Positions 24,180 through 40,336 of a DNA stretch of 64,000 nt are shown here, one piece after another. The DNA comes from Moraxella sp. K1664 (GTDB lineage Bacteria > Pseudomonadota > Gammaproteobacteria > Pseudomonadales > Moraxellaceae). Below the pieces are notes generated by a model. The model did not search any database. It was given only the letters and a program-made list of their open reading frames with translations, and was not told where the DNA came from. The translations under genes and the position numbers were made by a program. Location of the stretch: positions 868,001-932,000 of the forward strand of contig NZ_CP155576.1 in assembly GCF_039693965.1 (NCBI RefSeq), in the 5' to 3' direction. Within the stretch, counting starts at the first letter, position 1; each line of letters opens with the position of its first letter.

Positions 24180-24195
24180 TGTTTCACGTGAAACA
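24180..24195. promoter_or_regulatory. parS site 1 (perfect), at the recF stop
   Basis: TGTTTCACGTGAAACA, the full ParB consensus palindrome. The recF stop codon TGA lies inside it. Confidence 0.9.
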
Positions 24196-25329
24196 CTCAT
24201 CTGGTGTGATACCACCCTGTTTCACGTGAAACTTTTTAAAATTCTTTGGCTCATGCAGGGCTGATATTTTTTGGGCGACTATCCTTGCCGTCTCGTCTTG
24301 CAAACTGGTTATCATAAGCTGACAAGGCAGTGACAGTAGTGTATCAAGTAGCATATCCATCGCTCCCACATCAAGCTCCGCATCAATGTCATCAACAAGC
24401 ACCACAGGCTGTATCTGCTGATACGCACACATCACTTGTAGTTGCGAGAGTCTTAGGGCGATGATGAGCAGTTTTTTCTCGCCCCGAGAGAGCACATCCA
24501 CCGCCTGACTTTTGACTTGTCCGCCATCGCCAGACTGCTTTAACATCACCATCACATCGGCACGGTGAGCCCCCACACGAGTATAGCCCAGCTCCATGTC
24601 AGAGTCCAAGCGAGACGCCAGTACACAGAGCAGTCCTGCCTTATCATCAAAACCTGCCTGATAGGACAGATAAATATCGCCCTGATAATGTGGTAGCAGT
24701 CGCCCCATCATCTCATCAAAGCACACCTGCCACCGCTCAAAGACCGCCTGCCGACATTGGTGTAGCTTGTCTGCATGATACGCCAGCTGACTGTCCCATG
24801 CCCGCACTTCACCGCCTCGCTCACGCACACGGGGCGATTTTAGTAATAGATTTCGCTGTTTGAGCAGTCGCTGATAGGCAAGCCATTCTCCATAAAACTC
24901 CTGTTTCACGTGAAACGTCAGCCAATCCAACATCTGCCGTCTGGCATGACTGCCCTCTTCTAGCACCGCCATGCCGCTAGGGTCAATGGGTAACACTGGT
25001 AAGGCATAAGTCAGTGGACTTTGAGTGGCTACGGTTTGCCCATTGAGTTTTAACACCGTCGTTGCCAGCTGTCGCTCATCCAGATTTTTTTGCACTGCTA
25101 GCATGTCAGACTCTGTCATCGCCCACACCGTGCAGGATTTTTGATGATGACTGATGTAGCGTTTGGGCTCGTGATGACGAAAAGTTTTACCCCGAGACAA
25201 CAAAAACACCGCCTCTAAAAGCGATGTTTTGCCACTGCCATTACGCCCCACGAACACATTACAGTCAGCGAGTGTCAGACTTATCTGAGCTAGGTTGCGT
25301 ACATGGGTGATTTGAAGCTGTGTGATCAT
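24184..25329 (-). CDS. recF: Recombination/replication repair protein RecF
   Basis: SMC-like ATPase that loads RecA at gaps. Start MITQLQITHVRNLAQISL, 10 bases after dnaN; the open frame extends 19 codons into dnaN but the family start is here. Walker A is VGRNGSGKTSLLEA, the signature region is VLSRGEKKLLIIAL and Walker B is VVLVDDIDAELD. Three parS sites lie in or at the gene, encoding LTFHVKQ in mid-protein, KFHVKQ near the end and the final CFT plus the stop. The C-terminal tail is thus partly written by parS sequence. It follows dnaN in the conserved dnaA-dnaN-recF order, but gyrB is not next. Confidence 0.95.
   Translation of the reverse strand: MITQLQITHVRNLAQISLTLADCNVFVGRNGSGKTSLLEAVFLLSRGKTFRHHEPKRYISHHQKSCTVWAMTESDMLAVQKNLDERQLATTVLKLNGQTVATQSPLTYALPVLPIDPSGMAVLEEGSHARRQMLDWLTFHVKQEFYGEWLAYQRLLKQRNLLLKSPRVRERGGEVRAWDSQLAYHADKLHQCRQAVFERWQVCFDEMMGRLLPHYQGDIYLSYQAGFDDKAGLLCVLASRLDSDMELGYTRVGAHRADVMVMLKQSGDGGQVKSQAVDVLSRGEKKLLIIALRLSQLQVMCAYQQIQPVVLVDDIDAELDVGAMDMLLDTLLSLPCQLMITSLQDETARIVAQKISALHEPKNFKKFHVKQGGITPDECFT
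24218..24233. promoter_or_regulatory. parS site 2, within recF
   Basis: TGTTTCACGTGAAACT, 15 of 16 bases of the consensus, 38 bases from site 1. Confidence 0.85.
24902..24917. promoter_or_regulatory. parS site 3, within recF
   Basis: TGTTTCACGTGAAACG, 15 of 16 bases. It encodes FHVKQ, where other RecF proteins have a similar Phe-His segment. Confidence 0.85.
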
Positions 25330-25339
25330 GCCCTGCCCA

Positions 25340-26482
25340 TCACACACGCATGGGCATGACGACATATTGATAATTGTGGTCATCACCCACTTGATAAATG
25401 CGTGTCGGACTGGTCGGGTGTACCATTTCTAGGCGGATGTCGCCCTCTAACACATTTAGCACAGCACGCAAATAGGACTCATTAAATGAAATCTCAATCG
25501 GCTCACCTGTGTAATTGACCGCCACCTCTTCTCTGGCTTCGTCTTGCTCACGGTTGGTGGAGATGACATCCACCGTCTCGCTTTTGGCAAAGTGCAGTAG
25601 CACGCCAGGGGAGTCTTTGGTGTTCACCACCGCCACCCGACGCAAGACCTCAACCATGCTGTCTTTATTAAAAATGGCGATTTTATCGTTATTGGTTGGC
25701 ATGACACGGCGGTAGTCGGGGAATTTACCCTCAATTAAACGGGCGGTCAAAGATATCATCATCTGCCCACCAAAGTTTAAACTGACGGTCAAAAAGTCGC
25801 TATCTAATCCCAAAGTTACCATGTCGCCATTTTCTTCGGCGGTTTTTAGTAGGTCGGTCAAGAGCTTTTCTAGACCACTGACCGCCTTACCGGGGATAAT
25901 AACTTTGGTTTCATCATGACTGTCCGCCAAGGTTTGATACGCCACTGCCAAACGATGTCCATCGGTTGCCACCGCGGTCAGTTTGTCGCCCTCAATCTCA
26001 AAGAGCAGTCCCGTCAAGTAGTGGCGTACGTCTTGGGTCGCCATGGCAAAGCGGGTGTGCTTGATGAGATTAAATAGGGTATCACGCCCGATTTTGACCA
26101 GCTTTTCTGAACGTGGCTCGCCAATGCTTGGATAATCCTGAGCAGGTAGCGTGCTAAGCATGTATTTACCCTTGCCACTGGTGATGTGACAGCGACTGCC
26201 TGCCACTTCAATGCTGACCATATTATCAGGCAGAGCCTTGCAAATGCCAAAAAACTTATCCGCAGGAATGGTTACCGCCCCTGCTGTCACGCACGCCCCC
26301 TCGGGCAGACTGATGACATTGGTTAGTTCCACCTCCAAATCGGACGCGGTCATCGTCAGGCTTTGTGGTTCTAGCACCAGTTTTAGGTTGCCCAAAATCG
26401 CCATTTGGTGATGATTATCCACCGCCTCAATGATGAGCGTCATGGCTTTGATGAGTAGGGCTTTATCAATGACTAACTTCAT
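25340..26482 (-). CDS. dnaN: DNA polymerase III beta sliding clamp
   Basis: 380-residue ring-forming processivity clamp. It starts MKLVIDKALLIKAMTLIIEAVD, carries the central VATDGHRLAVAY motif near residue 175 and ends YQYVVMPMRV, the usual VMPMR(V/L) C-terminus that completes the partner-binding pocket. The length is close to E. coli (366). It lies 80 bases after dnaA and 10 bases before recF and is probably cotranscribed with both. Confidence 0.97.
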   Translation of the reverse strand: MKLVIDKALLIKAMTLIIEAVDNHHQMAILGNLKLVLEPQSLTMTASDLEVELTNVISLPEGACVTAGAVTIPADKFFGICKALPDNMVSIEVAGSRCHITSGKGKYMLSTLPAQDYPSIGEPRSEKLVKIGRDTLFNLIKHTRFAMATQDVRHYLTGLLFEIEGDKLTAVATDGHRLAVAYQTLADSHDETKVIIPGKAVSGLEKLLTDLLKTAEENGDMVTLGLDSDFLTVSLNFGGQMMISLTARLIEGKFPDYRRVMPTNNDKIAIFNKDSMVEVLRRVAVVNTKDSPGVLLHFAKSETVDVISTNREQDEAREEVAVNYTGEPIEISFNESYLRAVLNVLEGDIRLEMVHPTSPTRIYQVGDDHNYQYVVMPMRV

Positions 26483-26562
26483 AAAAATCCTTAATGTTTA
26501 CAAAAATTTAACATGGCCTATTATAACAAACTTCACACCGCATTTCATGATGGCTGTTACCA

Positions 26563-28134
26563 TCAAGCAAATTCAAGCGTGGCAAGCAAAGCCTGATAGT
26601 CTTTTTCTACCGATGAATCTTCGGCTCGCAGTTCACTAATTTTCTCACAAGCATGCATGACCGTGGTATGGTCTCGTCCGCCAAACACTTGTCCTATCTC
26701 AGGAAAGCTATCTTGGGTCAGCTCACGCACCAATGCCATCGCCATCTGACGGGGACGAGCGATGTTGCGAGCCCGCTTTTTACCAATCAAATCTTTGACC
26801 GACACACCATAATACTCCGCCACTAGGTCACGGATATTCTCTGCATTGACCGCCCTTGCTCGTGCCTCAATACGGTCTTTGATGGCATGACGCACCAGCG
26901 AGAGTGTTACCTCACCGCCCACCAACAGGGCATTGGCACGCACTTGGTTTAACGCCCCTTCTAATCGGCGAACATCTGGGGGCATGTTTTGTGCCATAAA
27001 AATCGCACAGTCTTTGGGTAGTTCCATGCCAAGCAACGTCGCCTTTTTTTGCAAAATTTGCATACGCATTTCAATGTCAGGCGGTTCGATGGCAAGCGAC
27101 AACCCACCCTCAAAGCGAGACAAAAAGCGTGTGTCAAAATCCTGCATTTGTGACGGTGGTCTGTCAGACGCCAAAATCAGCCGTTTGTCGCCTTTGGTAA
27201 ATTCGCCAAATAGCGTCATCAAAAACTGCGAGACTTTCGGGCCGTTTTTGTTGTTAATCATGTGCACGTCATCAACAATGAGCAAATCCGCCTGACAAAT
27301 CCGCCGAAGCAAAGAATCCGCCCCACCCTCGCCCCCACGCAGGGCATTAATGGTCACCTTAAAAAACTGGTCTTTGCTAAAATAACACACCAAAAGCCCA
27401 GCACGTTCATAGCGGTGAGCCACCGCATGCATGAGATGGGTCTTGCCCAGCCCTGATGAGCCGTAGATAAAATACAAATGCGTGTCATGCTTGGCGGTTT
27501 TATCGGTCAGGTTTTTGGTCAGCTCTTGGCAGGCGTTATATGCCAGTGCATTGGACTTACCCTTGACAAAATTTTCAAAGGTAAACCGCTCTTCTAAGGG
27601 CTGGCTCTCTTCAATGCTCGTCGGCTTTTTGGGTGATTTGGGCTTTTGCTTTTTGGGAGTTTTGTCTACCTTGTCGCTTTTTGGCACAAGGGGCATGACC
27701 CGCAGGGCAACACTTGACACATGCCGACCACCACCATCTGCCAGACGTGTCACCACCGCACAGATTTTGTCATAATAATGCGTCTCAATGCGGCGGATAA
27801 ACACATCATTAATGGCGAACAATACCAGCGTCTCATCCGCAAATACAGGCTTCAAAGAGCGTAGCCATTGGTTCAGCTCGCTCTCTTTTAACTCATGTTT
27901 TAGTTCAGACAGGCACGACTGCCAAAACAGCTCAGCATCGGCATCATGTTTTTGAACATCGCCAATCACACCATCATCGCCCACTCCAACACCTGCCGAG
28001 TCTTTATCGCCGACGACAGGGGCATCACCCTTATAATTAGCATCATAACTGACATTTGTATCCATGCCCACATCCGTCTTATCAGACGGTAGGTGTTCCG
28101 GCATGGTTTCATCAAACAGCGATATGTTTTGCAT
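26563..28134 (-). CDS. dnaA: Chromosomal replication initiator DnaA
   Basis: AAA+ initiator that binds DnaA boxes and opens oriC. An acidic N-terminal extension precedes domain I (ELFWQSCLSELKHELKESELNQWLRSL is the domain I helix, split here by its loop). A Lys/Pro-rich linker leads to domain III with Walker A YGSSGLGKTHL and Walker B LLIVDDVHMI. Domain IV ends with GGRDHTTVMHACEKI, the box-binding signature. At 523 residues it is longer than E. coli DnaA (467), through the first 45 acidic residues. It reads away from oriC. Confidence 0.97.
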   Translation of the reverse strand: MQNISLFDETMPEHLPSDKTDVGMDTNVSYDANYKGDAPVVGDKDSAGVGVGDDGVIGDVQKHDADAELFWQSCLSELKHELKESELNQWLRSLKPVFADETLVLFAINDVFIRRIETHYYDKICAVVTRLADGGGRHVSSVALRVMPLVPKSDKVDKTPKKQKPKSPKKPTSIEESQPLEERFTFENFVKGKSNALAYNACQELTKNLTDKTAKHDTHLYFIYGSSGLGKTHLMHAVAHRYERAGLLVCYFSKDQFFKVTINALRGGEGGADSLLRRICQADLLIVDDVHMINNKNGPKVSQFLMTLFGEFTKGDKRLILASDRPPSQMQDFDTRFLSRFEGGLSLAIEPPDIEMRMQILQKKATLLGMELPKDCAIFMAQNMPPDVRRLEGALNQVRANALLVGGEVTLSLVRHAIKDRIEARARAVNAENIRDLVAEYYGVSVKDLIGKKRARNIARPRQMAMALVRELTQDSFPEIGQVFGGRDHTTVMHACEKISELRAEDSSVEKDYQALLATLEFA

Positions 28135-29103
<969 letters not shown>

Positions 29104-29180
29104 TCTGATAGATTATAAAACTAAGCACTCTTTGAACCGCACCCCAAAAGTTAGACACACTAACCTTTGGGGTGCTTTTT

Positions 29181-29717
29181 ATGGCAAAATACACAACCGA
29201 CTTTAAACTGTCTGTGATTGGGTATTATCTTAATCATCATGGCTACAAACAAACCGCCAAACACTTTAATCTAAACCACACAACCGTAGAGCTATGGGTT
29301 AAACTCTATCAAGCACATGGCATTGATGGCATAAAAAGACGACACACAAAGGCTGTCTATGACACAGATTTTAAGCTTAATGCCGTTCAAGCCATACAAC
29401 AGGGCAAATCGCTTACACAACTTGCCATAGAGCTTAATCTGCCACAACCTTCTTTACTGTCAACTTGGTTAAAGTCCTACCAAGCCTTTGGTATAATGGG
29501 ACTAATACCCAAACCCAAAGGCAAAAAAGCAATGTCAAACAAACACAACGCTAATAAAACCAAATCAACTTGGAAAACCAAACAAGACCACGAAAAAAGT
29601 GTGGATGATTTGCTTGATGAACTTGCCTATCTTAGAGCAGAGAATGACTATCTAAAAAAGCTAGATGCCTTAATTCGTCAAAAGGAACAATCAGTACAAA
29701 CAAAGAACAAGTCCTGA
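29181..29717 (+). CDS. IS3-family transposase OrfA
   Basis: 178-residue DNA-binding protein with two helix-turn-helix units (KQTAKHFNLNHTTVELWVK and LTQLAIELNLPQPSLLSTWLK) and a leucine-zipper-like C-terminal segment (DDLLDELAYLRAENDYLKKLDAL, split by register). The start is the ATG at 29181 (MAKYTTDFKLS). The sequence A-AAA-AAG at 29654-29660 is the classic -1 slippery site used to make the OrfAB fusion. Confidence 0.85.
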   Translation: MAKYTTDFKLSVIGYYLNHHGYKQTAKHFNLNHTTVELWVKLYQAHGIDGIKRRHTKAVYDTDFKLNAVQAIQQGKSLTQLAIELNLPQPSLLSTWLKSYQAFGIMGLIPKPKGKKAMSNKHNANKTKSTWKTKQDHEKSVDDLLDELAYLRAENDYLKKLDALIRQKEQSVQTKNKS

Positions 29718-29758
29718 TCATCCAAGAATTAAGGCATAAGCACAAACTTGCTGACTTA

Positions 29759-30640
29759 TTGGCAGTGTCAAACTTGCCAAGAAGTGTGTTTTATTACCAC
29801 ATTCGTCAAAGTACAAAGCCTGACAAAGACCTTGACTTAAAAGAACACATTAACCACATCTACCACCAACACAAGGGCAGGTATGGTTATCGTAGAATCA
29901 CATCAGAGCTTAACAATCAGCTTGCCCAAAAAGGCATGGTCATTAATCATAAACGAGTGCAACGACTGATGGCTAAACTTGGACTCAAAGCATTGGTTCG
30001 TCGTCAACGTAAGTTTAATACTTACAAAGGCACAATGGGCAAAGATACCATTCAGGACAATATACTCAAAAGAGACTTTAAAGCAGACAAACCCAATCAA
30101 AAGTGGGCAACAGACATCACAGAGTTTAAAGTACAAGACAAGGCAAATGATGGCAGTGTCATTCAAAGAAAACTCTACCTATCGCCCATCATCGACTTGT
30201 TTAATGGTGAGATTGTCAGTTATACGATGAAGGACAGACCAACGTATGAGTTGGTCAAAGAGATGTTAAATGATGCCCTATCCAAGCTAAGCCAAGAAAA
30301 GATGGATGACAAACCCATCATTCATTCAGACCAAGGCTGGCACTATCAAATGCACCAGTATCAACAAACCCTAAAAGAACAAGGCTTAACCCAAAGCATG
30401 TCAAGAAAAGGCAATTGTTTGGATAATGCTGTGATAGAGAGCTTCTTTGGTACGCTAAAACAAGAGATATTTTATGAGACAACCACATTTACATCAACAG
30501 ATGAACTTAAACAAGTGATTGATGAGTACATACACTACTACAATCATGATAGAATAAAGAGCAAATTAAAAGGACTAAGTCCTGTTAAGTACAGAAACTT
30601 AGTCCAATTAGGGTTAATACAACCACTTGCAACAACCTAA
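29759..30640 (+). CDS. IS3-family transposase OrfB (DDE integrase)
   Basis: Catalytic half in the -1 frame. It is normally made by frameshifting at 29654-29660, since its frame is open upstream of 29759 (KEQVLIIQELRHKHKLADLL). DDE residues lie in WATDITEF, IHSDQGWHYQ and NAVIESFFGTLKQE. The HTH_21 segment HKGRYGYRRITSELN is present. It appears complete. Confidence 0.87.
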   Translation: MAVSNLPRSVFYYHIRQSTKPDKDLDLKEHINHIYHQHKGRYGYRRITSELNNQLAQKGMVINHKRVQRLMAKLGLKALVRRQRKFNTYKGTMGKDTIQDNILKRDFKADKPNQKWATDITEFKVQDKANDGSVIQRKLYLSPIIDLFNGEIVSYTMKDRPTYELVKEMLNDALSKLSQEKMDDKPIIHSDQGWHYQMHQYQQTLKEQGLTQSMSRKGNCLDNAVIESFFGTLKQEIFYETTTFTSTDELKQVIDEYIHYYNHDRIKSKLKGLSPVKYRNLVQLGLIQPLATT

Positions 30641-30802
30641 CCTTTAATCTTATGTCTAAGATTTGGGGGTCGGTTCAATTTTGGGGTGCTTTTTATTTGC
30701 TCAAATTTTGGCTTATGTTTTGGCTTATGATTGTAAGTCGGATAAGCCATTGACGAAACACGCCAAGCCTTGTATGATAGCCTGATTTAATATAGCTTTA
30801 TC

Positions 30803-31216
30803 ATGACAAATCCACAATCTGCTACTCCTGCCCCGCCATTTTGTTTTACCAAAGCCCAGCGTCTGCTTAGCCCCAATGACTTTAAACGGGTGTTTGATAA
30901 TCCTATCAAAAAAATTCACTCAGAGCATCTGCTCCTATTTGTCCAAACAGGCATGCCAGAGCAAACGCACGCCCGCTTAGGGCTTGCCATTACCAAAAAA
31001 AAGGTCAAACTGGCGGTCATGCGTAACCGCCTAAAACAACTTACCCGTGAATACTTTCGCCATACTGCCCCCACGCTTGGGGCGGTGGACGTGGTGCTGA
31101 TTGTTAAGAAAAACTACACAAAAGAGACTGACCTGCATGATGAGCTGATTCATATTTTTGAAAAATTAGCCATGCTGTTTCCTAGCGATTTATCTAAAAT
31201 TAATCAGTCATGCTAA
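30803..31216 (+). CDS. rnpA: Ribonuclease P protein component
   Basis: 137-residue basic protein that helps the RNase P RNA mature tRNA 5' ends. Family text: FTKAQRLLSPNDFKRVF, ARLGLAITKKKVKLAVMRNRLKQ (with the RNR motif) and DVVLIVKKNYT. It overlaps yidD by seven bases, as is common. It is separated from rpmH by the IS3 element, so it now depends on sequence in 30678-30802 or on the IS for a promoter. Confidence 0.95.
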   Translation: MTNPQSATPAPPFCFTKAQRLLSPNDFKRVFDNPIKKIHSEHLLLFVQTGMPEQTHARLGLAITKKKVKLAVMRNRLKQLTREYFRHTAPTLGAVDVVLIVKKNYTKETDLHDELIHIFEKLAMLFPSDLSKINQSC

Positions 31217-31524
31217 CCAAACTTTTACTACGGCTTGTCAGATTTTATCAAAAAGCAATCAGCCCGCTTGTCCCTGCTCGCTGTCGCTATTACCCCACTT
31301 GCTCGGCGTATGCCCATACCGCCTTAACAACCCACACCACGCCAAAGGCTCTGATACTTGTTATTAAAAGAGTGTTGTCTTGTCAGCCTTTTGGTGGTTC
31401 GGGCATTGATTTTGTGCCGGTGCCGTTATACCGCTACGCCTTTGTGCCAGCGATGATTCTGCACCGCTACCCCTTAAAAGACCGCCATTCTTATCAAGCT
31501 CGTCAAAACCATTTGGTAAAATAA
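31210..31524 (+). CDS. yidD: Membrane protein insertion efficiency factor YidD
   Basis: 104 residues with the family start LLLRLVRFYQKAISPLVPAR followed by CRYYPTCSAYA, then VLSCQPFGGSGIDFVP. It works beside YidC at the inner membrane. Start overlaps the rnpA stop, so translation is probably coupled. Confidence 0.93.
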   Translation: MLTKLLLRLVRFYQKAISPLVPARCRYYPTCSAYAHTALTTHTTPKALILVIKRVLSCQPFGGSGIDFVPVPLYRYAFVPAMILHRYPLKDRHSYQARQNHLVK

Positions 31525-31683
31525 TTGTTTACCAATGATTTTACAGTGTTTTAAGTAAATTGATATTCCAAAATTGGTGATAATCCTTGGGTTTATTTAC
31601 AAAAAAATGGGGTAATTTTTGTTATTTTATTGTAAAATAGCCTATTTTGTTTTCTATTTTAAACATTGCAAAGGCTAAAACTT

Positions 31684-33342
31684 ATGCAAAAGATTTTACG
31701 GACCCTAATTATTATTGCCATGCTCATCACGTCTTATCTGCTCGTGTTGGCGTGGCGAGATGATTATGCCAATAAGCCTGTAACAGCGACACAGCCTGTG
31801 GCAGTGCAAGGGGCAAGTGATGTGCCAAGTGCCGGCGGTGGCGATGTGCCAGTGGTGGGCGGAGCCACGCCTGTGATGACACCAAATGTCAGCAGTGGCT
31901 TGATTAGCGTCTCAACCGACCGCTATGACATCAAGATTAACCCTGTGGGTGGGGACATCGTTTATGCAGGGTTGAAGCAATATGATGCCACGCTTGGCAG
32001 TAGCGAGCGTTTTGTGCTGTTAGAGAGTGAGCAGGGTCGCACCTATGTCGCTCAGTCGGGACTGGCAGGGCAAGACGGCATTGACACCAATGCAGGGCGT
32101 GCCATTTATCAAAGCCCCAGAACCAGCTATGACATGGCAGGCACGGCGGTGCTAACCGTGCCACTCATTCATGAAAAAGACGGCGTAACCATTACCAAAA
32201 CCTACACCTTTAACGCCGGCGAGTATCCCATTAACGTGGCGTATAACATCAATAACGCGTCCGACAAGGTGTGGCAGGGCAATATGTACGCCCAGCTAAA
32301 ACGTGATGGCTCTGCCGACCCTGGTCTTGATGATAAGGGCATGATGGGCATGGCAACCTATCTGGGCGGTGCGTGGGGCGTGCCAAGTGAGCCTTATAAT
32401 AAGTTAAAATTCAAAGACTTCAACAGTGGCGAGCTTAACGCCGTCAGCAGTGATGGCTGGGTGGGCGTGGTTCAGCACTACTTTGTCTCGGCATGGACAC
32501 CAGGTAATTTTGATGGGCAATTTTATGCCCGTGAAAGCGGTGGCGAGCATTTTATCGGCTTTAATAGCCCTGCCGTTGTTGTCCCTGCCGGCAAACAAAT
32601 GACCATAGATGCCACACTCTATGCTGGCCCTAAGGTGCAAGATGAGATGGCAGGGGTGGCAACAGGGCTTGAAAAAGCGGTAGATTATGGCATATTTTGG
32701 CCAATCTCAAAGCCAATGTTCCTAATCCTTGAAGCCTTGCACAAAATCTTGGGCAACTGGGGCTGGGCGATTGTCGGCTTGACTTTGATTGTCAAAATTG
32801 CTCTGTTTTGGCTATCCAACAAAAGCTATGTGTCGATGGCAAAAATGCGTGCCATTGCCCCCAAATTAGAAGCCCTAAAAGAAAAACACGGTGATGACCG
32901 CATGGCGATGAGTCAGGCGATGATGCAGTTGTATCGTGATGAAAAAGTCAATCCGATGGCGGGCTGTTTGCCGATTTTGCTACAAATGCCGATTTTCTTG
33001 GGATTATACTGGTGTTTGGTGGAGAGTGTGGAGCTACGCCACGCCCCTTGGATTTTGTGGATTAAAGACTTGTCCGCCATGGATCCGTGGTTTATTTTGC
33101 CGATTATCATGATGGCGACCATGTATTTTCAACAACTTCTAAACCCACAGCCCACCGACCCCATGCAGGCTAAGATGATGAAAATCATGCCACTCATTTT
33201 CGGGGTGTTTATGCTGTTTTTCCCCGCAGGTTTGGTGCTATACTGGACGGTAAACAACCTATTTAGCATGGCTCATCAGCAGTTTGTCAATAAACGAGTT
33301 GAAAAAGCCTACAACAAACCTGTCAAAGTGTTGTCCGACTGA
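31684..33342 (+). CDS. yidC: Membrane protein insertase YidC
   Basis: 552-residue inner-membrane insertase. An N-terminal helix (ILRTLIIIAMLITSYLLVLAW) leads to a large periplasmic beta-domain (about residues 60-340). Five C-terminal membrane segments follow, including KVNPMAGCLPILLQMPIFLG and the MFFPAGLVLYWTVNNLFS region. The ATG at 31684 is preferred over the TTG at 31666. A terminator follows at 33362. Confidence 0.96.
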   Translation: MQKILRTLIIIAMLITSYLLVLAWRDDYANKPVTATQPVAVQGASDVPSAGGGDVPVVGGATPVMTPNVSSGLISVSTDRYDIKINPVGGDIVYAGLKQYDATLGSSERFVLLESEQGRTYVAQSGLAGQDGIDTNAGRAIYQSPRTSYDMAGTAVLTVPLIHEKDGVTITKTYTFNAGEYPINVAYNINNASDKVWQGNMYAQLKRDGSADPGLDDKGMMGMATYLGGAWGVPSEPYNKLKFKDFNSGELNAVSSDGWVGVVQHYFVSAWTPGNFDGQFYARESGGEHFIGFNSPAVVVPAGKQMTIDATLYAGPKVQDEMAGVATGLEKAVDYGIFWPISKPMFLILEALHKILGNWGWAIVGLTLIVKIALFWLSNKSYVSMAKMRAIAPKLEALKEKHGDDRMAMSQAMMQLYRDEKVNPMAGCLPILLQMPIFLGLYWCLVESVELRHAPWILWIKDLSAMDPWFILPIIMMATMYFQQLLNPQPTDPMQAKMMKIMPLIFGVFMLFFPAGLVLYWTVNNLFSMAHQQFVNKRVEKAYNKPVKVLSD

Positions 33343-33361
33343 TGATGATTAGTCCCAAGCC

Positions 33362-33387
33362 AATCCGCCTATCTGGGCGGATTTTTT
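33362..33387 (+). terminator. Terminator between yidC and mnmE
   Basis: Stem AATCCGCC / GGCGGATT with a 6-base loop and a T run. Confidence 0.75.
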
Positions 33388-33443
33388 GTGGGCAAAGTTG
33401 GCTAAATAATGGTAAAATGACAAAAATTTTATCAACTACCACT

Positions 33444-34949
33444 ATGCCAACTCTATCTCAACAACCCACCATTGTCGCCATAGCAAGCCCTATCGGTCAA
33501 GGCGGTGTGGGCGTGATTCGCTTATCAGGTCGCACCGCCCACGCTATTGGCTGTGCCATATCGGGCAAATCGACTCTCACCCCACGCCACGCCCATTTTG
33601 CCAAATTTAAGGACAATACGGGGGCGGTTATCGATGAAGGGGTCATCATCTACTTTAACGCCCCACATTCGTTCACAGGCGAAGACGTGGTGGAACTCCA
33701 AGGGCATGGCGGTATGGTCTTGCAAAACTTGCTCCTTGCTCGCTGTTTTGAGCTTGGGGCAAAGCAGGCAACCGCAGGGGAATTTTCAATGCGTGCCTTT
33801 GAAAATGACAAAATTGACCTTGTGCAAGCCGAAGCGATAGCGGATGCAATTTCTGCTACGAGTGTCGCTCAGGCAAGCAGTGCCATGCGTTCGCTGTCAG
33901 GGGAATTTTCCAAAAAAATCAATGAGTTATCTGAGAAAATCGCCAATATCCGCCTGTATGTGGAAGCGAGCATTGATTTTCCTGATGAAGATGACGTGGA
34001 ATTTTTGTCGGACGGGGTGATTGAGTCAAAAATTGATGAGATTTTGCGTGCCATTGATGACATTTTGGTAACCGCCAAACAAGGTCAGCTCTTGCGAGAC
34101 GGGGTGCAGGTGGTGCTGGCAGGTAAGCCTAACGCTGGCAAATCAAGTCTGCTAAACCGCCTAGCAGGGGTGGAGCGTGCCATTGTTACCGACATTGCAG
34201 GGACGACACGAGATACGCTGTCCGAGACGCTCGTGCTGGACGGCTTGACCGTGCATTTGACCGACACCGCAGGGCTTCGAGATACGTCCGATAAGGTGGA
34301 GAAAATCGGCATTGACCGTGCCAAATCTGCCGTCAAACAAGCCGATATTTTGCTGTTTGTCTATGATGTGAGTAGTGAGAGCGAGCCATTTATCCTTGCC
34401 AAAGAGCTGTTTGCCGATATCATTGATGAGATTGGCATGGAGAATTTTGAGCGTAAGCTCGTCATGATTGCCAATAAAGCCGATTTATTGGGCAATGTTT
34501 CACGTGAAACAATGGCTGATTTTAACCCTAATAATAACCACAATGATAACCAAAATGGCGAAAATGTTCCACGTGAAACCATACAAAATAGTTTAAACAA
34601 CTTAAACAACCAAGATGATTCTAATGTTCCACGTGAAACAATCAGCCAAATCCGAGTTTCTTGCACCACAGGGCAAGGGCTTGATGACTTGGTGGGTTTA
34701 TTAAAAGACAAAGTGGGCTTTCATCCGCCAGAGAACAGTCTCATCGCTCGTACTCGCCACATTGATGCCCTAAAACGTGCCAAATCACACGTCACAGACG
34801 CTCACACTCAGCTTGTCGTCTATCAGGCAGGGGAGCTGGTGGCGGAGAGTTTGAGGCTGTCGCAAACGGCATTGGGCGAGATTACGGGGCAGATGACGGC
34901 AGATGAACTGCTTGGGCGGATTTTTTCAAGTTTTTGTATCGGAAAATAG
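33444..34949 (+). CDS. mnmE: tRNA modification GTPase MnmE with parS-bearing insertion
   Basis: GTPase that, with MnmG, makes the wobble-uridine cmnm5 modification. N-terminal TIVAIASPIGQGGVGVIRLS, P-loop GKPNAGKSSLLNRL, DTAGLRDT, G4 motif NKAD and the C-terminal CIGK are all present. Between NKADLLG and the next conserved text (ISQIRVSCTTGQGLDDL) is an Asn/Asp-rich insertion of about 50 residues with three NV(S/P)RET units, each encoded by a parS site. It is therefore about 501 residues against 454 in E. coli. Start chosen at 33444; 33417 is an alternative. Confidence 0.95.
   Translation: MPTLSQQPTIVAIASPIGQGGVGVIRLSGRTAHAIGCAISGKSTLTPRHAHFAKFKDNTGAVIDEGVIIYFNAPHSFTGEDVVELQGHGGMVLQNLLLARCFELGAKQATAGEFSMRAFENDKIDLVQAEAIADAISATSVAQASSAMRSLSGEFSKKINELSEKIANIRLYVEASIDFPDEDDVEFLSDGVIESKIDEILRAIDDILVTAKQGQLLRDGVQVVLAGKPNAGKSSLLNRLAGVERAIVTDIAGTTRDTLSETLVLDGLTVHLTDTAGLRDTSDKVEKIGIDRAKSAVKQADILLFVYDVSSESEPFILAKELFADIIDEIGMENFERKLVMIANKADLLGNVSRETMADFNPNNNHNDNQNGENVPRETIQNSLNNLNNQDDSNVPRETISQIRVSCTTGQGLDDLVGLLKDKVGFHPPENSLIARTRHIDALKRAKSHVTDAHTQLVVYQAGELVAESLRLSQTALGEITGQMTADELLGRIFSSFCIGK
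34496..34511. promoter_or_regulatory. parS site 4 (perfect), within mnmE
   Basis: TGTTTCACGTGAAACA, encoding NVSRET at the left edge of the MnmE insertion. Confidence 0.9.
34565..34580. promoter_or_regulatory. parS site 5, within mnmE
   Basis: TGTTCCACGTGAAACC, 14 of 16 bases, encoding NVPRET. Confidence 0.75.
34625..34640. promoter_or_regulatory. parS site 6, within mnmE
   Basis: TGTTCCACGTGAAACA, 15 of 16 bases, encoding NVPRET. Confidence 0.85.
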
Positions 34950-34958
34950 GAGAGCGAT

Positions 34959-35447
34959 GTGCATTGTCCGTTTTGTAGTGCCATAGACACCAAAGTGATT
35001 GACTCACGCCTTGCTGCTGAAGGGTCGCAGGTTCGCCGTCGTCGCCAATGTACCGAGTGTGGCGAGCGGTTTACCACCTTTGAAGTTATGGAAGTGGTCA
35101 TGCCCCGTATCATCAAAAGCAATGGCTTGCGTGAGCCTTATGATTATAATAAACTTCGCCGTTCTATGGCATTGCCCCTGCAAAAACGCCCTGTGAGCAT
35201 TGACGAGATAGATACAATCGTACACCGAATAGAGCAACGCCTACGCCAAACAGGCGAACGTGAAGTATCCAGCAAGGTGCTTGGCGAGATTGTCATGGCG
35301 GAGTTAAAGGCGATTGACGATGTGGCGTATGTGCGTTTTGCCAGCGTATATCGGGATTTTCAGGACATAGAAGCCTTTAAAGCCGAGCTTGAAAACTTCG
35401 CTCCCAAAGTGTGTCATGATAACCTACAAGGACAAGGTCATGAGTGA
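34959..35447 (+). CDS. nrdR: Transcriptional repressor NrdR
   Basis: 162-residue repressor of ribonucleotide reductase genes. The N-terminal zinc ribbon (HCPFC...CTECGERF) is followed by an ATP-cone domain ([22 protein letters not shown]). The start is GTG at 34959; an ATG two bases earlier is out of frame. AGGAGAG precedes it. It overlaps ribD by eight bases, a common nrdR-ribD arrangement. Confidence 0.95.
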
Positions 35448-36570
35448 TAGTTTTGCTGATATTTGGTCTGACAATATGTTGTCTGATAGTGTCAAGTCTC
35501 GCCTAAGCCCTGCCCTGCCTGATGATGAAACATTCATGCTTATGGCATTAAATGAAGCCAAAAAAGGCGAATTTACCACTCGCCCCAATCCTGCGGTGGG
35601 CTGTGTCATTGTTAAGAATAACTTAATAATAGGCAAGGGTTTTCACCCCAAAGCAGGCTATCCCCATGCCGAAGTATTCGCCTTAACTGATGTCAAAAAT
35701 AGCGGTCAAGACACAAAGGGGGCAACCGCCTATGTTACCCTAGAACCGTGCAGTCATACAGGCAAAACACCACCTTGTGCGGACGCTCTGATTCGCTCAG
35801 GGGTGGCTCGGGTGGTGGTGGCGTGTGCCGACCCCAATCCACAGGTGGCAGGGCGTGGCTTACAAAAGCTCCTAGATGCTGGCATATCGGTATCGCTTGG
35901 GGTGTGCCAAAAACAGGCGTATGAGCTAAATGCAGGCTTTTTAAAGGCAATGGCGACAGGTTTGCCCTTTGTCCGCCTAAAAATGGGTATCAGTTTGGAC
36001 GGTCGCATTGCCATGCAAAATGGGCAGTCTAAATGGATAACGGGCGAATTATCTCGCAAAGACGTGCAAAACTTGCGTGCCAAAAGTGGGGCGATTATTA
36101 CAGGCTCAAATACGATTATCGCTGACAACCCTGCCCTAAATGTGCGTTTGCCCGATGTGGAGCTTGATAATATCGGCACAACCGCCATACCACAGCCCAA
36201 AATCGTGGTGGTGGATAGACGGGGCAAGTTGTCGCTTGATGATGATTTTACGGTGTTTAAAAACCCTAATACGCTAATTTGGCAAGATGATTTACCTACG
36301 CTTTTAAAAACGCTTGTGGTACAGTATCAATGCCACGATGTACTGGTGGAGACAGGGGCAACGCTTGCCACGAGTTTTTTAAGTCAAAATTTGGTGGATG
36401 AGCTTATTATTTATCAAGCCCCTTGCCTTTTGGGAGCGACTGCTCGTCCGATGTTTGGGGGGCAGTTTGAGCGATTGCAGGATAAGCTAGATTTTACGCT
36501 TGTGGATGTAGAACGACTTGGCGATGATGTTAAGATGATTTTTCGCCCAAAAAACTTATCCACAGCTTGA
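35440..36570 (+). CDS. ribD: Bifunctional riboflavin deaminase/reductase RibD
   Basis: Catalyses two successive steps of riboflavin synthesis. N-terminal deaminase domain: zinc ligands in PHAEVFAL and [19 protein letters not shown]-terminal reductase domain: [24 protein letters not shown] (split by loop) and [14 protein letters not shown]. The ATG at 35440 follows an AAGGACAAGG leader and overlaps nrdR. A perfect DnaA box (36556-36564) lies in its last codons. Confidence 0.95.
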
Positions 36571-36605
36571 TTACTTAAATAGTTGAGCAAAAATTTGGCA
36601 AAAAA

Positions 36606-36621
36606 TGTTCCACGTGAAACT
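36606..36621. promoter_or_regulatory. parS site 7
   Basis: TGTTCCACGTGAAACT, 14 of 16 bases, intergenic ribD-ribE. Confidence 0.75.
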
Positions 36622-36698
36622 GTGGAAAACTTTTTAAAAATTGACGATTTTAATTCAAAATGGGGTTTGATAGCACGCCATAAGCCTTGATTTTAAAG

Positions 36699-36714
36699 TG
36701 TTCCACGTGAAACC
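36699..36714. promoter_or_regulatory. parS site 8
   Basis: TGTTCCACGTGAAACC, 14 of 16 bases, intergenic. Confidence 0.75.
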
Positions 36715-36729
36715 AAAAACGACTAACCG

Positions 36730-36745
36730 TGTTCCACATGAAACA
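36730..36745. promoter_or_regulatory. parS-like site 9, degenerate
   Basis: TGTTCCACATGAAACA, 14 of 16 bases, with a change in the central CACGTG. Confidence 0.55.
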
Positions 36746-36861
36746 TATTTAGGTTGTGGATAAGTTAATCGGATTATTTGTAAAGGGTTAATGATTAAAA
36801 AGTTATCCACAGTCGATTATCAAGGCTAATTGGTGTTAATTGGCGATGTTTTGGGTGGATT

Positions 36862-36885
36862 GTAGGGGTGAATTACATTCGCCTA
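36862..36885. repeat. Dispersed short palindrome, copy 4
   Basis: GTAGGGGTGAATTACATTCG followed by CCTA, a member of the short palindrome family. Confidence 0.5.
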
Positions 36886-36989
36886 TTAAGAATTAAGAAC
36901 GGTGTTTTGTTAAAGGTTTGCGATGATTGTATTTAGCTAAGTTAAATGGCAAGCCAACGGCACATAAGATTAAATATTGGTGGTAGTCT

Positions 36990-37102
36990 AAAAAAGTATG
37001 CTGAACTAGGTTTTCCGTTCACCCTGAGCTTGTCGAAGGGTAGGAAAACCGTTATGGTTCGACAAGCTCACCACGAACGGTTTTCCTTGTAGCATACTTT
37101 TT
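36990..37102. repeat. Inverted-repeat element, copy B (113 bp)
   Basis: Outer ends AAAAAGTATGCT and AGCATACTTTTT are perfect inverted repeats. The inside has CCGTTCACCCTGAGCTTGTC followed by GAAGGG, and TTATGGTTCGACAAGCTCAC followed by CACGAACGG. It shares its core with copy A at 21550 but not its outermost bases. MITE-like. Confidence 0.75.
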
Positions 37103-37251
37103 GAACCAAAGCCTAAATATTAAATAAAATTCAACTTAACAAATAAAGGTTTATGATAAGTAATTGATTTTTATAAAATTATCATAGATTAGTTTTTTAA
37201 ATCATTAAGAAATTTTAAATCATTTAAAAAACCAATCATAAAAGGTAAGCC

Positions 37252-37914
37252 ATGTTTACAGGTATCATAGAGGCGACAGGCACGCTGACCGCCATTACGC
37301 CCACGGGGGGCGATGTGCGATTGACCATTTCTGCTCCTGATTTGGATTTTGGCGATGTCAAATTGGGCGATTCCATTGCGTCCAACGGCATTTGCCTGAC
37401 GGTGGTGGCGATAGACGGCAACAGCTATGCGGTAGATGTTTCACGTGAAACATTAGCCATTTCCGCCCTAAATGTTTGGAAAGTGGGCGACACGCTCAAC
37501 CTAGAAAAAGCCATGCTTCCAACCACACGTTTTGGCGGGCATATCGTGGCAGGTCATGTGGACGGCGTGGGCAAAATCGCCAAAATTGCCAAAGACGCTC
37601 GCTCGGTCTATATCGAAGTCGCCCTACCGTCCGAGCTGATGAAATACACCGCCGACAAAGGCTCAATCACGGTGGACGGCATCAGTCTGACGACCAACCG
37701 CATAAAACCGTCTGAAAATATCGTCTGCCTAAATATCATTCCGCACACTGCCGAGATGACCAACATCGCACGGCATTGGACGGTGGGGCGAGCGGTAAAC
37801 ATTGAAGTGGATTTGGTGGCACGGTATTTGGAACGGCTTATCGGGGCAAAAACCGACACGCCACAAAGCAGGATTACCGAAGAGTTGTTGATAAAAAGTG
37901 GGTTTTTTAAGTAG
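37252..37914 (+). CDS. ribE: Riboflavin synthase alpha chain
   Basis: 220-residue trimeric enzyme that dismutates lumazine to riboflavin. It has the invariant MFTGIIEATG start and two lumazine-binding repeats, each with a GDS(I)ASNGICLTV-like or KGSITVDGISLT segment and an HIVAGHVDGVG motif. VDVSRETL, a family-conserved stretch, is encoded by a perfect parS site. Confidence 0.96.
   Translation: MFTGIIEATGTLTAITPTGGDVRLTISAPDLDFGDVKLGDSIASNGICLTVVAIDGNSYAVDVSRETLAISALNVWKVGDTLNLEKAMLPTTRFGGHIVAGHVDGVGKIAKIAKDARSVYIEVALPSELMKYTADKGSITVDGISLTTNRIKPSENIVCLNIIPHTAEMTNIARHWTVGRAVNIEVDLVARYLERLIGAKTDTPQSRITEELLIKSGFFK
37437..37452. promoter_or_regulatory. parS site 10 (perfect), within ribE
   Basis: TGTTTCACGTGAAACA, encoding VSRET in a stretch conserved in the family. 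Confidence 0.9.
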
Positions 37915-38004
37915 ATTTAATGAACTCAATATTTAACGCACGTCCCTACGTTTACGTTATTAAATTGGATTGCGGTAATTTAAAAATATATATAAAGGTA
38001 AAAA

Positions 38005-39006
38005 ATGAACCAAAAATTACGCCTAATTTTCGCAGGCACACCAGAATTTGCCAAAGTCGCCTTACAAGCCCTAATTGACCGCCAAGACGGGCTAAATCTT
38101 GACATTGTGGCGGTTTATACTCAGCCTGACCGCAAGGCAGGACGTGGGCAAAAATTGACCGCAAGCCCCGTTAAAGAGCTTGCCCTTGCTCATAATATCC
38201 CTGTGGAACAGCCGATAAGTTTTAGCTTAAAGCATGAAAACGGACAGGTTTCACGTGAAACACTTGCCAATTATCGCCCTGATGTGATGATTGTGTGTGC
38301 GTATGGCTTGATTTTACCGCTTGGCGTGCTAAATACTCCGACTTATGGTTGCCTAAACATTCACGGCTCGCTACTGCCTAGGTGGCGTGGCGCGGCTCCT
38401 ATTCATCGGGCGATTTTGGCAGGCGATACGACCACAGGCATTACGATAATGCAGATGAATCAAGGGCTTGACACGGGCGATATGCTTTACAAACTTCCTT
38501 GCGACATTACCGACACCGACACGACCCAAACGCTTCACGACAAACTTGCCGAGCTTGGTGGTGTGGCGATGATAACCGTGCTAAAAGATTTGGCAACTTA
38601 TCAGGCTAATGCCGAGCCACAAGATGACCGCCTTGCCAATTATGCCGAAAAAATCAGCACCGATGAAGGGCAAATCAACTGGCAAAATTCCGCTCATCAA
38701 ATCAATCGCCAAATCCGTGCGTTAAATGCGTTTGCTTTTTTAAATGGCGAGCGTATCAAGGTGCTAGAATGTACGCCCATAAAGCCTGACCAAACCACGA
38801 CCGAGACGGCAGGTAAGATTGTGAGTGTGGGGCGAAAGGCGGTGCTGGTGGCGTGCGGTGCTGATGAAAATGGCGATAAGCATTTGATAAATATCACAAA
38901 AATGCAATGGGCGGGGGGTAAGCCTTTGACTGCTGAACAAATTGCGGTGGGCGATAAATTAAAAGACGGACAAGTTTTTGATAATTACGCTGACAATGGG
39001 CAATAA
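38005..39006 (+). CDS. fmt: Methionyl-tRNA formyltransferase
   Basis: 333-residue enzyme that formylates initiator Met-tRNA with 10-formyl-THF. It has LRLIFAGTPEFAKVALQAL at the start, the catalytic segment NIHGSLLPRWRGAAPIHRAI, and GLDTGDMLYKLPCDI. The C-terminal anticodon-side domain runs to residue 333. A parS site (38247) encodes QVSRET in a loop before YRPDVMIVCAYG that is longer than in E. coli. rsmB starts two bases after its stop. Confidence 0.96.
   Translation: MNQKLRLIFAGTPEFAKVALQALIDRQDGLNLDIVAVYTQPDRKAGRGQKLTASPVKELALAHNIPVEQPISFSLKHENGQVSRETLANYRPDVMIVCAYGLILPLGVLNTPTYGCLNIHGSLLPRWRGAAPIHRAILAGDTTTGITIMQMNQGLDTGDMLYKLPCDITDTDTTQTLHDKLAELGGVAMITVLKDLATYQANAEPQDDRLANYAEKISTDEGQINWQNSAHQINRQIRALNAFAFLNGERIKVLECTPIKPDQTTTETAGKIVSVGRKAVLVACGADENGDKHLINITKMQWAGGKPLTAEQIAVGDKLKDGQVFDNYADNGQ
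38247..38262. promoter_or_regulatory. parS site 11, within fmt
   Basis: GGTTTCACGTGAAACA, 15 of 16 bases, encoding VSRET. Confidence 0.8.
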
Positions 39007-39007
39007 T

Positions 39008-40336
39008 ATGCAAATCAATCCACAATTACCCGTCCGAGCCAATATTATTTTAACCCTTGAAAAAATCAATCAAGGGCAATCCTTAGCATTATTATTGGAC
39101 GATTTATTAAACGCCGTCAAAGATAATGAAAAAGGCTTCGCCCACGAATTATTATTAGGCACGCTTCGCCATTGGCACGCCATTAGTCGCATTGGTGAGA
39201 GTTTGATAAAACAGCCCCCAACCGATATTGGTATTACCTGTGCTTTAAATATGGGCTTGTATGAACTTTTATATATGAACACGCCTGATTATGCCATTAT
39301 CAACGAAACATTAAATGCGGTCAAATCTTTAAATAAAAATTATGGCGTAGGGCTAATTAACGCCATATTGCGAAAAGTGGCAGACAAAAAAGAAAAATTC
39401 GCCAAAAAGGTAAATAAAAATCACAGTCTGCCTAATTGGCTTGCCAAAGAATTCAAGCAAGATTGGGGCGAATATTATGAAAATTTGGGGCAAAATTTGC
39501 GAAAGTCTGCTCCGATATTTTTGCGTGTCAATGGTAAATTTAGCACGCTTACATATTATGCCGATTTGTTAAATTCTGCCGATATTGCCCATGAAATTCT
39601 ACCACTTGGCGTGGCGGATGAGTGTGTGATTAAGCTGACCACTTCGCAAAAAGTGCAATCTTTACCGCATTTTCAAGACGGTTTTGTGAGTGTGCAAGAC
39701 CGCCATGCCCAGCTTTGTGGGCATATTTTAAAGGCGTTAAACCTATCCAAAAATCTAAGATTATTGGACGCTTGCACCGCCCCTGGGGGGAAACTCGCCC
39801 AACTGCTTGAACTGTCAAACGATGTGTTTCACGTGGAACATATCACGGCACTGGATAATGACGAAAAACGCCTAAATCATGTGCATGACAACTTGGCTCG
39901 CTTGGGGTTGGCGGGCAAGGCGGACGTGATTTGGGCGGACGGCACGAGCTATCGCACGGATACGCCCTTTGATGTCATTGTGCTTGACGCTCCGTGTACT
40001 GCCACAGGGGTCATCAGGCGACACCCTGACATTGCCCTACTTCGCACCGAGCAAGATGTCGCCCAAACGGTCGCCTTGCAAGCGGAAATTTTACAAAATC
40101 TGTGGCAAAATCTGGCGGTGGGCGGGTATTTGCTGTATATTACTTGCTCCTTGTTAAAGGTGGAAAACGAACATCAAATGACAAATTTCCTTGCCAGTAC
40201 GCCAAACGCCAAAGCGGTGGAATTTAAATTGACCTTACCCAATCAAATCAAGCAAACGGTGGGTTATCAATGTTTGCCGTTAAATGACGATGACGGAGAC
40301 GGGTTTTATTATGCGTTGCTACAAAAAGTGGATTAA
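39008..40336 (+). CDS. rsmB: 16S rRNA (cytosine-967 C5) methyltransferase RsmB
   Basis: 442 residues: an N-terminal NusB-like RNA-binding domain (about 1-135) and a C-terminal SAM methyltransferase with LDACTAPGGKLAQLLEL, the catalytic DAPCTATGVIRRHPDI and ITCSLL. The start at 39008 is chosen over the upstream frame that overlaps fmt. parS 12 encodes VFHVEH just after the SAM loop, where the family has a shorter text. It follows fmt in the usual order. Confidence 0.95.
   Translation: MQINPQLPVRANIILTLEKINQGQSLALLLDDLLNAVKDNEKGFAHELLLGTLRHWHAISRIGESLIKQPPTDIGITCALNMGLYELLYMNTPDYAIINETLNAVKSLNKNYGVGLINAILRKVADKKEKFAKKVNKNHSLPNWLAKEFKQDWGEYYENLGQNLRKSAPIFLRVNGKFSTLTYYADLLNSADIAHEILPLGVADECVIKLTTSQKVQSLPHFQDGFVSVQDRHAQLCGHILKALNLSKNLRLLDACTAPGGKLAQLLELSNDVFHVEHITALDNDEKRLNHVHDNLARLGLAGKADVIWADGTSYRTDTPFDVIVLDAPCTATGVIRRHPDIALLRTEQDVAQTVALQAEILQNLWQNLAVGGYLLYITCSLLKVENEHQMTNFLASTPNAKAVEFKLTLPNQIKQTVGYQCLPLNDDDGDGFYYALLQKVD
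39825..39840. promoter_or_regulatory. parS site 12, within rsmB
   Basis: TGTTTCACGTGGAACA, 15 of 16 bases, in rsmB. Confidence 0.75.

Follow-up and report, generated by a model that had tools for sequence, protein, structure and literature searches.

A 64,000-nucleotide stretch of the chromosome of Moraxella sp. K1664 (contig NZ_CP155576.1, positions 868,001 to 932,000 of the forward strand, referred to here as the window) contains twelve parS-like sites that very probably make up the central part of a chromosomal centromere belonging to a ParABS partition system. This assignment follows from the enrichment of the sites near the replication origin oriC, the presence of ParB, ParA, and SMC genes in the genome, the conservation of site positions among relatives, and the constraint on codons that carry the sites. 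The array is a true parS array of a known kind, and its density and coding location are ordinary. The less ordinary features, as judged from sequence, are an element of DnaA boxes and parS sites in the ribD-ribE gap, seen in a good part of the relatives, and an enlarged loop of MnmE.

The parS array around the replication origin

The word scored was the 16-bp palindrome TGTTYCACGTGRAACA, which we take to be the parS consensus, with close variants allowed. The original prediction, made from the window sequence alone, had listed twelve such sites, three of them perfect and nine inside or at the ends of genes, and had regarded them as ParB sites near the origin. All twelve coordinates and the three perfect matches proved exact; five of the remaining sites have one change and four have two. 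The genic placement was likewise borne out, with three sites in recF, three in mnmE, one each in ribE, fmt, and rsmB, and three intergenic. The sites span 15.7 kb, and the window has no further match even when up to three mismatches are allowed. At that threshold, 100 dinucleotide shuffles of the window gave a mean of 0.50 matches and a maximum of 3, versus the 12 real sites.

The whole chromosome (2,780,008 bases in one contig, designated C1) was scanned with up to two mismatches allowed, yielding 16 sites versus 1 for a reversed control pattern. Fifteen of the 16 are within 232 kb including oriC, or 8.4% of the chromosome, and the genome-wide count found no similar density elsewhere. Three of the origin-side sites are outside the window, at C1:800766, C1:839256, and C1:1033176, and fall inside open reading frames presumed, from their sequences, to encode a YigZ-like protein, Mpl, and FtsI; 12 of the 15 origin-side sites are therefore in genes or at gene ends. 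The outlying match, at C1:2422663 with the core CGCCTG, is probably due to chance. Matches with exactly three mismatches numbered 8, scattered in the genome, and brought the total to 24 versus 27 for the control, and were therefore treated as background and not counted as sites. Across 199 genomes of the family, the number of matches at two or fewer mismatches ranged from 0 to 21, the zeros including one masked genome (G007), and from 11 to 21 in a group designated g9. The count of 16 in K1664 is thus at the high end of the family range, and is not unique.

The genome also encodes the partner proteins. A single ParB family match was found (TIGR00180, 2.7e-50, above the cut-off), having a ParB/Spo0J-type core and encoded at C1:64439-64987 near genes that by eye resemble exbB and exbD, with no parA adjoining. 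A ParA-type ATPase is encoded beside rsmG at C1:2716822-2717346; it scored above the PF13614 cut-off, while its best NCBIfam match, NF041546, was under the model cut-off at 116 of 180 bits. An SMC protein is also encoded. The origin is near C1:896 kb (window 28.1-29.0 kb), where the gap between dnaA (26563..28134, minus strand, TIGR00362) and rpmH has a cluster of five perfect DnaA boxes, TTATCCACA, at 28466..28671 that is likely oriC. The genes parA and parB usually form one operon beside oriC, an arrangement that is usual and not obligatory. Here they are neither adjacent nor near oriC, being approximately 128 kb from each other and each 0.8-1 Mb from oriC. In genomes G004, G006, G010, and G012, where parB and mnmE share a contig, the two are likewise separated by hundreds of kilobases.

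From established ParB biology, ParB would be expected to load onto these parS sites as a CTP-bound clamp and then slide into the flanks, covering much of the 15.7 kb, after which ParA and SMC would separate the sister origins.

Selection on DNA at the intragenic sites

The window recF gene (24184..25386, minus strand; TIGR00611, 279 bits versus a cut-off of 172) carries three parS sites on the minus strand. The perfect site at 24180..24195 overlaps the stop codon (TGT TTC ACG TGA), and sites with one change are found at 24218..24233, within the sequence for the C-terminal peptide KFHVKQG, and at 24902..24917, within that for the internal peptide TFHVKQ. The perfect site itself provides the recF stop codon, in a frame that cannot be read through, and its position is shared by M. 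caprae and M. lacunata.

We searched 115 gammaproteobacterial genomes for recF and found 96 above the cut-off, from which K1664 was left out to give 95 loci, nearly all from different families. With up to two mismatches, two sites were present in 77 of these loci, three in 4, one in 10, and none in 4, for a total of 91 loci with at least one site and 81 with at least two. Aligned equivalents of the window sites were present in 84 of the 95 at the internal place and in 78 at the recF end. Three rows with a misread reading frame or alignment (G252, G275, and G308) were kept; the site counts were made on DNA, the codon columns include these rows, and they were scored as misses in the aligned-place counts where the place was unreadable.

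At the recF sites, the codons for His, Val, and Glu were 95-98% uniform, and the best of 90 other conserved columns reached 78%. The Phe codon was approximately half TTT and half TTC at a position where parS tolerates C or T, and the residue following Val was mostly Glu or Lys, with the exchanges between them coinciding with the G or A that parS permits. The codon uniformity and the variation at tolerant bases together indicate that the DNA itself is selected at the recF sites, beyond the encoded peptide. One genome (G294, locus L275) keeps the recF-end palindrome in another reading frame, encoding TCSTWN in place of FHVE, a sequence pattern that also points to selection on DNA.

The sites in the other single-site genes were then considered for codon use. 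The plus-strand genes ribE (riboflavin synthase, 37252..37914), fmt (38005..39006), and rsmB (39008..40336), each identified by a family match, carry on the same strand a perfect site at 37437..37452 encoding DVSRETL, a site with one change at 38247..38262 encoding QVSRETL, and a site with one change at 39825..39840 encoding VFHVEH, respectively, the last in a stretch of RsmB that varies in length among relatives. The V, S, R, and E codons of ribE and the V, R, and E codons of fmt were near the top of their class in uniformity. The T codon of the site peptide, which ends in the outermost base of the palindrome, where variation is tolerated, was not among the uniform ones in either gene.

The intragenic sites could alternatively be by-products of protein motifs, such as FHVE of RecF and DVS-ET of RibE, with no role for the DNA. 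Part of the similarity at recF is in fact protein-borne, since synonymous codon shuffling with the protein fixed left 92 of 168 recF sites at two or fewer mismatches, and DVS-ET is kept in all 33 aligned Moraxellaceae RibE sequences, even where the DNA has drifted from parS (G020, G021, and the oculi genome). We nonetheless consider this explanation very improbable, given that the recF His, Val, and Glu codons exceed all 90 other conserved columns in uniformity, that the Glu/Lys exchanges and the frame-shifted palindrome of G294 follow parS rather than the peptide, that the MnmE and RsmB sites are in stretches of variable length, and that three sites are intergenic. Scarcely credible is the idea that the palindrome serves some other process, whether in DNA uptake or as the target of a different dimeric regulator: Moraxella species are known for DNA uptake, but an uptake word would be expected genome-wide, rather than with 15 of 16 copies near oriC, and the word matches the parS consensus. 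The best experimental parS of Pseudomonas aeruginosa are two or three bases off the word scored here (PMC4368675, PMC3909081, PMC5521831). With selection acting on the DNA, the encoded peptides (FHVK/FHVE and VSRET/VPRET) would follow from keeping the palindrome, and the intragenic parS sites would have been accommodated either in motifs that already fit, as with DVS-ET of RibE, or in tolerant stretches, as with the MnmE loop, RsmB, and the recF end.

Equivalent sites were sought with TGTTYCAYRTGRAACA, at up to two mismatches, in 21 Moraxella genomes including K1664, with gene coverage differing among them. Where the gene was covered, the internal and end sites of recF were each present in 13 of 15 genomes, a site in the MnmE loop in 21 of 21, the ribE and fmt sites each in 17 of 20, the rsmB site in 15 of 19, and a site in the ribD-ribE gap in 13 of 20. 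The comparison with other Moraxella suggested along with the original prediction thus showed the mnmE, ribE, fmt, and rsmB sites recurring at equivalent places in most genomes. The assignment by the original prediction of the palindromes as ParB sites near the origin is now backed, on sequence grounds, by their enrichment in the genome, the presence of a chromosomal gene for ParB, conserved positions in relatives, and codon constraint. The g9 loci are probably from Psychrobacter, two of the nine coming from records so named and seven being grouped by label and arrangement. They had the internal recF site in 6/6, the recF end site in 6/6, MnmE in 9/9, ribE in 9/9, rsmB in 5/7, and the gap in 9/9. 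Four loci of group g7 had the internal recF site in 2/2, the recF end site in 1/2, MnmE in 1/4, ribE in 3/4, fmt in 2/2, rsmB in 1/2, and the gap in 4/4. In ten other loci of the family, one of them named Acinetobacter, the internal recF site was present in 6 of 7; ribE, fmt, rsmB, and the ribD-ribE gap were not found within the stretches of those ten loci.

The masked genome G007 was excluded from this comparison. No parS, ParB, or MnmE was seen in it, and it was considered as a control for loss of ParB and rejected as an artefact, as one 15,001-base stretch of it holds 7,000 N; it is still included in the parS, ParB, mnmE, and facing-DnaA-box-pair tallies.

A subset of Moraxella loci (L134, L135, L137, L140, L144, L145, and others) often have CATGTG or CACATG at the parS centre in place of CACGTG, as would follow from C-to-T conversion at CpG. 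A change in ParB specificity was considered as the cause and was not supported, there being no obvious helix-turn-helix difference separating the groups when 20 ParB genes were compared across 19 Moraxella genomes, with the groups assigned by eye and other ParB-like matches of G010 and G018 left out.

Several observations weigh against the centromere assignment or its extent. The fmt site was found in just one of nine g9 loci, and in the ten other family loci the recF end site was present in 2 of 7 and the MnmE site in 0 of 10. Some sites carry two changes or a CACATG core, and in P. aeruginosa the parS with core divergence in both arms was the one that ParB bound least (PMC4368675, PMC3909081, PMC5521831). 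The survival of over half of the recF sites under synonymous shuffling, given above, belongs here as well. Co-occurrence of ParB with recF sites across families gave no contrast, as ParB was found in 79 of the 80 genomes tested among the 95; the sole genome without it, G305, is a 95% complete draft with a site at the recF end and none at the internal place. Escherichia coli K-12 does have other recF peptides (CFHNEP and MFTVEKG) with only a single remnant of three mismatches, at the recF end, and its family is described as without par genes (PMC3909081), but this contrast is of one species.

The mnmE gene (33444..34949, plus strand; the reading frame is open from 33342, and 33444 was taken as the start) carries three plus-strand parS sites in a single loop: a perfect site at 34496..34511 encoding NVSRET, a site with two changes at 34565..34580 encoding NVPRET, and a site with one change at 34625..34640 also encoding NVPRET. 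With the NKxD and G.G motifs as its bounds, the loop could be measured in 29 of 46 loci scanned (two were without mnmE). In most of the 29, the loop had 29-43 residues and zero to two parS sites. K1664, isolate S11M_Sa_26, M. caprae, and M. lacunata have loops of 56-69 residues with three parS sites. In all four the first and third sites are constant, the spacers vary in length, and the middle site is less constant, being decayed in S11M_Sa_26 and partly so in M. caprae. AlphaFold2 gave a pLDDT of approximately 30-40 over residues 351-398 (counted from the start at 33444), which are probably disordered, in a model of modest quality (mean 73, with 14 of 23 submitted sequences used). Loop length correlated with parS number over the 29 loci (Spearman 0.65; 0.59 in a first extraction with misread rows), with P-values that carry little meaning because the sequences are related. 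Two g9 genomes have a 56-residue loop with one parS, so parS does not alone explain the loop length. The predicted disordered loop with three parS sites is a less ordinary feature of this clade.

DnaA boxes and parS in the ribD-ribE gap

The three intergenic parS sites are part of an element at 36556..36811 in the ribD-ribE gap that also contains three perfect DnaA boxes and one DnaA-like box; neither these boxes nor the longer MnmE loop appeared in the original prediction. The perfect boxes, TTATCCACA, are at 36556..36564 (plus strand), 36755..36763 (minus), and 36803..36811 (plus). The DnaA-like box, TTTTCCACA, at 36621..36629 (minus), has one mismatch and overlaps by one base the parS at 36606..36621. 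The other parS sites are at 36699..36714 and 36730..36745, the latter with the core CACATG and possibly weak; all three are on the plus strand with two changes.

The 19 other Moraxella ribD-ribE gaps contain 63 perfect DnaA boxes, versus 0.10 by base shuffling, and the box spacings are exactly 199 and 48 bases in 7 of 20 Moraxella gaps, that of K1664 included. Eleven gaps picked among those with parS (nine Moraxella and two g9) were aligned, and 44 of the 47 invariant columns were inside boxes or parS, which make up 83 of the 321 window bases aligned. Among 26 gaps with parS, 21 have a DnaA box, perfect in 6 and with one mismatch in 15, that adjoins or overlaps a parS, versus 5.4 gaps on average and a maximum of 13 in 1000 runs of random box placement. 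Three g7 gaps have a perfect DnaA box directly ahead of parS. Among the matches listed, one facing pair of perfect DnaA boxes 36-56 bases apart was found in the K1664 genome.

Certain points detract from a fixed pairing of box and parS. Of the 21 abutting boxes, the 15 with a mismatch include that of the window; the 26 gaps are related and not independent; and 7 of 20 Moraxella gaps have no parS (G003, G004, G006, G017, G021, oculi, and S24M_Sa_22). Since DnaA boxes are still present in 6 of these 7, the boxes are the more constant part, and the pair is not obligatory.

From these patterns, we read the gap as a putative accessory DnaA site built into the centromere. It contains a DnaA-box cluster outside oriC, as in datA of E. 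coli and the clusters of Bacillus subtilis, and it has DnaA boxes beside parS, as in the Caulobacter type. The E. coli datA and B. subtilis clusters are not known to contain parS; here the DnaA boxes are interleaved with parS.

Alternatively, the boxes might constitute a DnaA-controlled promoter region of ribE, with parS present only because no coding constraint applies in the gap. The element is indeed upstream of ribE, intergenic DNA tolerates parS, and six Moraxella gaps have boxes without parS. Against this, conservation in the gap is highest at the boxes and parS, which are often in contact, and no RNA element was found by Rfam at gathering cut-offs in the window from 24 to 41 kb. We regard the promoter explanation as unlikely, while taking it seriously. 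The boxes could also be a second module of a bipartite origin, in place of a coupling or titration element. Three perfect boxes with a spacing fixed in part of the genus are found 8 kb from the dnaA-rpmH boxes, and a local GC-skew minimum (31.5 kb) is between the two clusters, but the dnaA-rpmH gap has five perfect boxes and gene orientations diverge there and not at ribD-ribE, making this proposal improbable.

If the gap is an accessory DnaA site within the centromere, DnaA and ParB might both occupy the element, linking initiation to segregation as reported for Caulobacter, whose parS region binds DnaA, with DnaA promoting movement of the region (Mera et al. 2014, via PMC6399470). Arguing from sequence and from this analogy, we prefer joint occupancy as a reading and consider it a substantial possibility, somewhat short of even. 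More doubtful is the further proposal that the gap acts as a replication-segregation switch in much of Moraxella, g9, and g7, with the dispersed intragenic parS sites forming one ParB domain. DnaA and ParB would meet where a DnaA box overlaps or abuts parS, and ParB loading on a newly copied origin would then displace or reshape DnaA 8 kb from oriC, timing re-initiation, or in the reverse direction DnaA would prime the centromere; new sites could be added to the ParB domain where protein loops, as in MnmE, tolerate them.

Other features of the gap were noted. By eye, the K1664 gap has an inverted-repeat insert with CACCCTGAGCTTGTCGAAGGG at window positions 36960-37110, and the gaps of M. caprae and M. 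lacunata are approximately 300 bases shorter than that of K1664. The Acinetobacter-like group g15 was considered as sharing the element and was rejected. Five g15 loci among the matches listed (L277-L281) have a second DnaA-box pair approximately 7 kb from oriC, past recF, but it is on the gyrB side with no parS adjoining, and it may be an accessory DnaA site in its own right. For many g15 genomes, no facing-box-pair match is among those listed.

Relation to known centromeres

The original prediction had considered both the density of the sites and their use of coding DNA unusual, and on these two points it was not sustained. In Myxococcus xanthus, a 3-kb region near oriC contains 22 putative parS (PMC3899335), a cluster that resembles the K1664 array in having many parS near the origin and is far denser. 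The five strongest Caulobacter sites are in 5 kb, and Caulobacter parS are in essential or costly genes (PMC5815017); counts within the family of K1664 reach 21. As to coding location, P. aeruginosa has all but one of its ten parS within coding sequence (PMC4368675), with parS1 and parS2 in recF and bound by ParB (PMC3909081, PMC5521831, PMC4368675), and 91 of the 95 gammaproteobacterial recF loci have a site.

The K1664 array is like parS1-parS4 of P. aeruginosa in the class of palindrome, clustering near oriC, coding location, and recF sites. It differs in having 12 sites, rather than four within 16 kb of the origin, and in having parA and parB distant from each other and from oriC, whereas the P. 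aeruginosa par operon is approximately 7 kb away (PMC3909081). It is also like that of Caulobacter, with tightly clustered parS in important genes and, in Caulobacter, DnaA bound at a centromere approximately 8 kb from the origin. The conserved intergenic element of K1664, recognized from its sequence, in which a DnaA box overlaps parS, has no counterpart described for Caulobacter in the available portions of these papers. Another parallel is rctA/parS2-B of Vibrio cholerae chromosome II, where ParB2 spreads from parS onto an initiator site, with suggested interference (PMC3688505); there too parS is beside an initiator-binding site near an origin, but the initiator is RctB and the chromosome is secondary, while here the sites are DnaA boxes. 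In the accessible parts of the open-licence literature, we found no description of Moraxella parS sites or of such a DnaA-box/parS element.

How and why a bacterial centromere region expands has been named an interesting question (PMC5815017). Relatives of K1664 show possible steps of such expansion, in the form of equivalent intragenic sites, centres that are CACGTG or CATGTG/CACATG, and an MnmE loop that is longer with a third parS. The recF result means that conserved peptides such as FHVEH may reflect selection on DNA and not protein function alone. The DnaA-box/parS element, if functional, would be a compact gammaproteobacterial case of coupling between initiation and segregation, contained within a few hundred bases.

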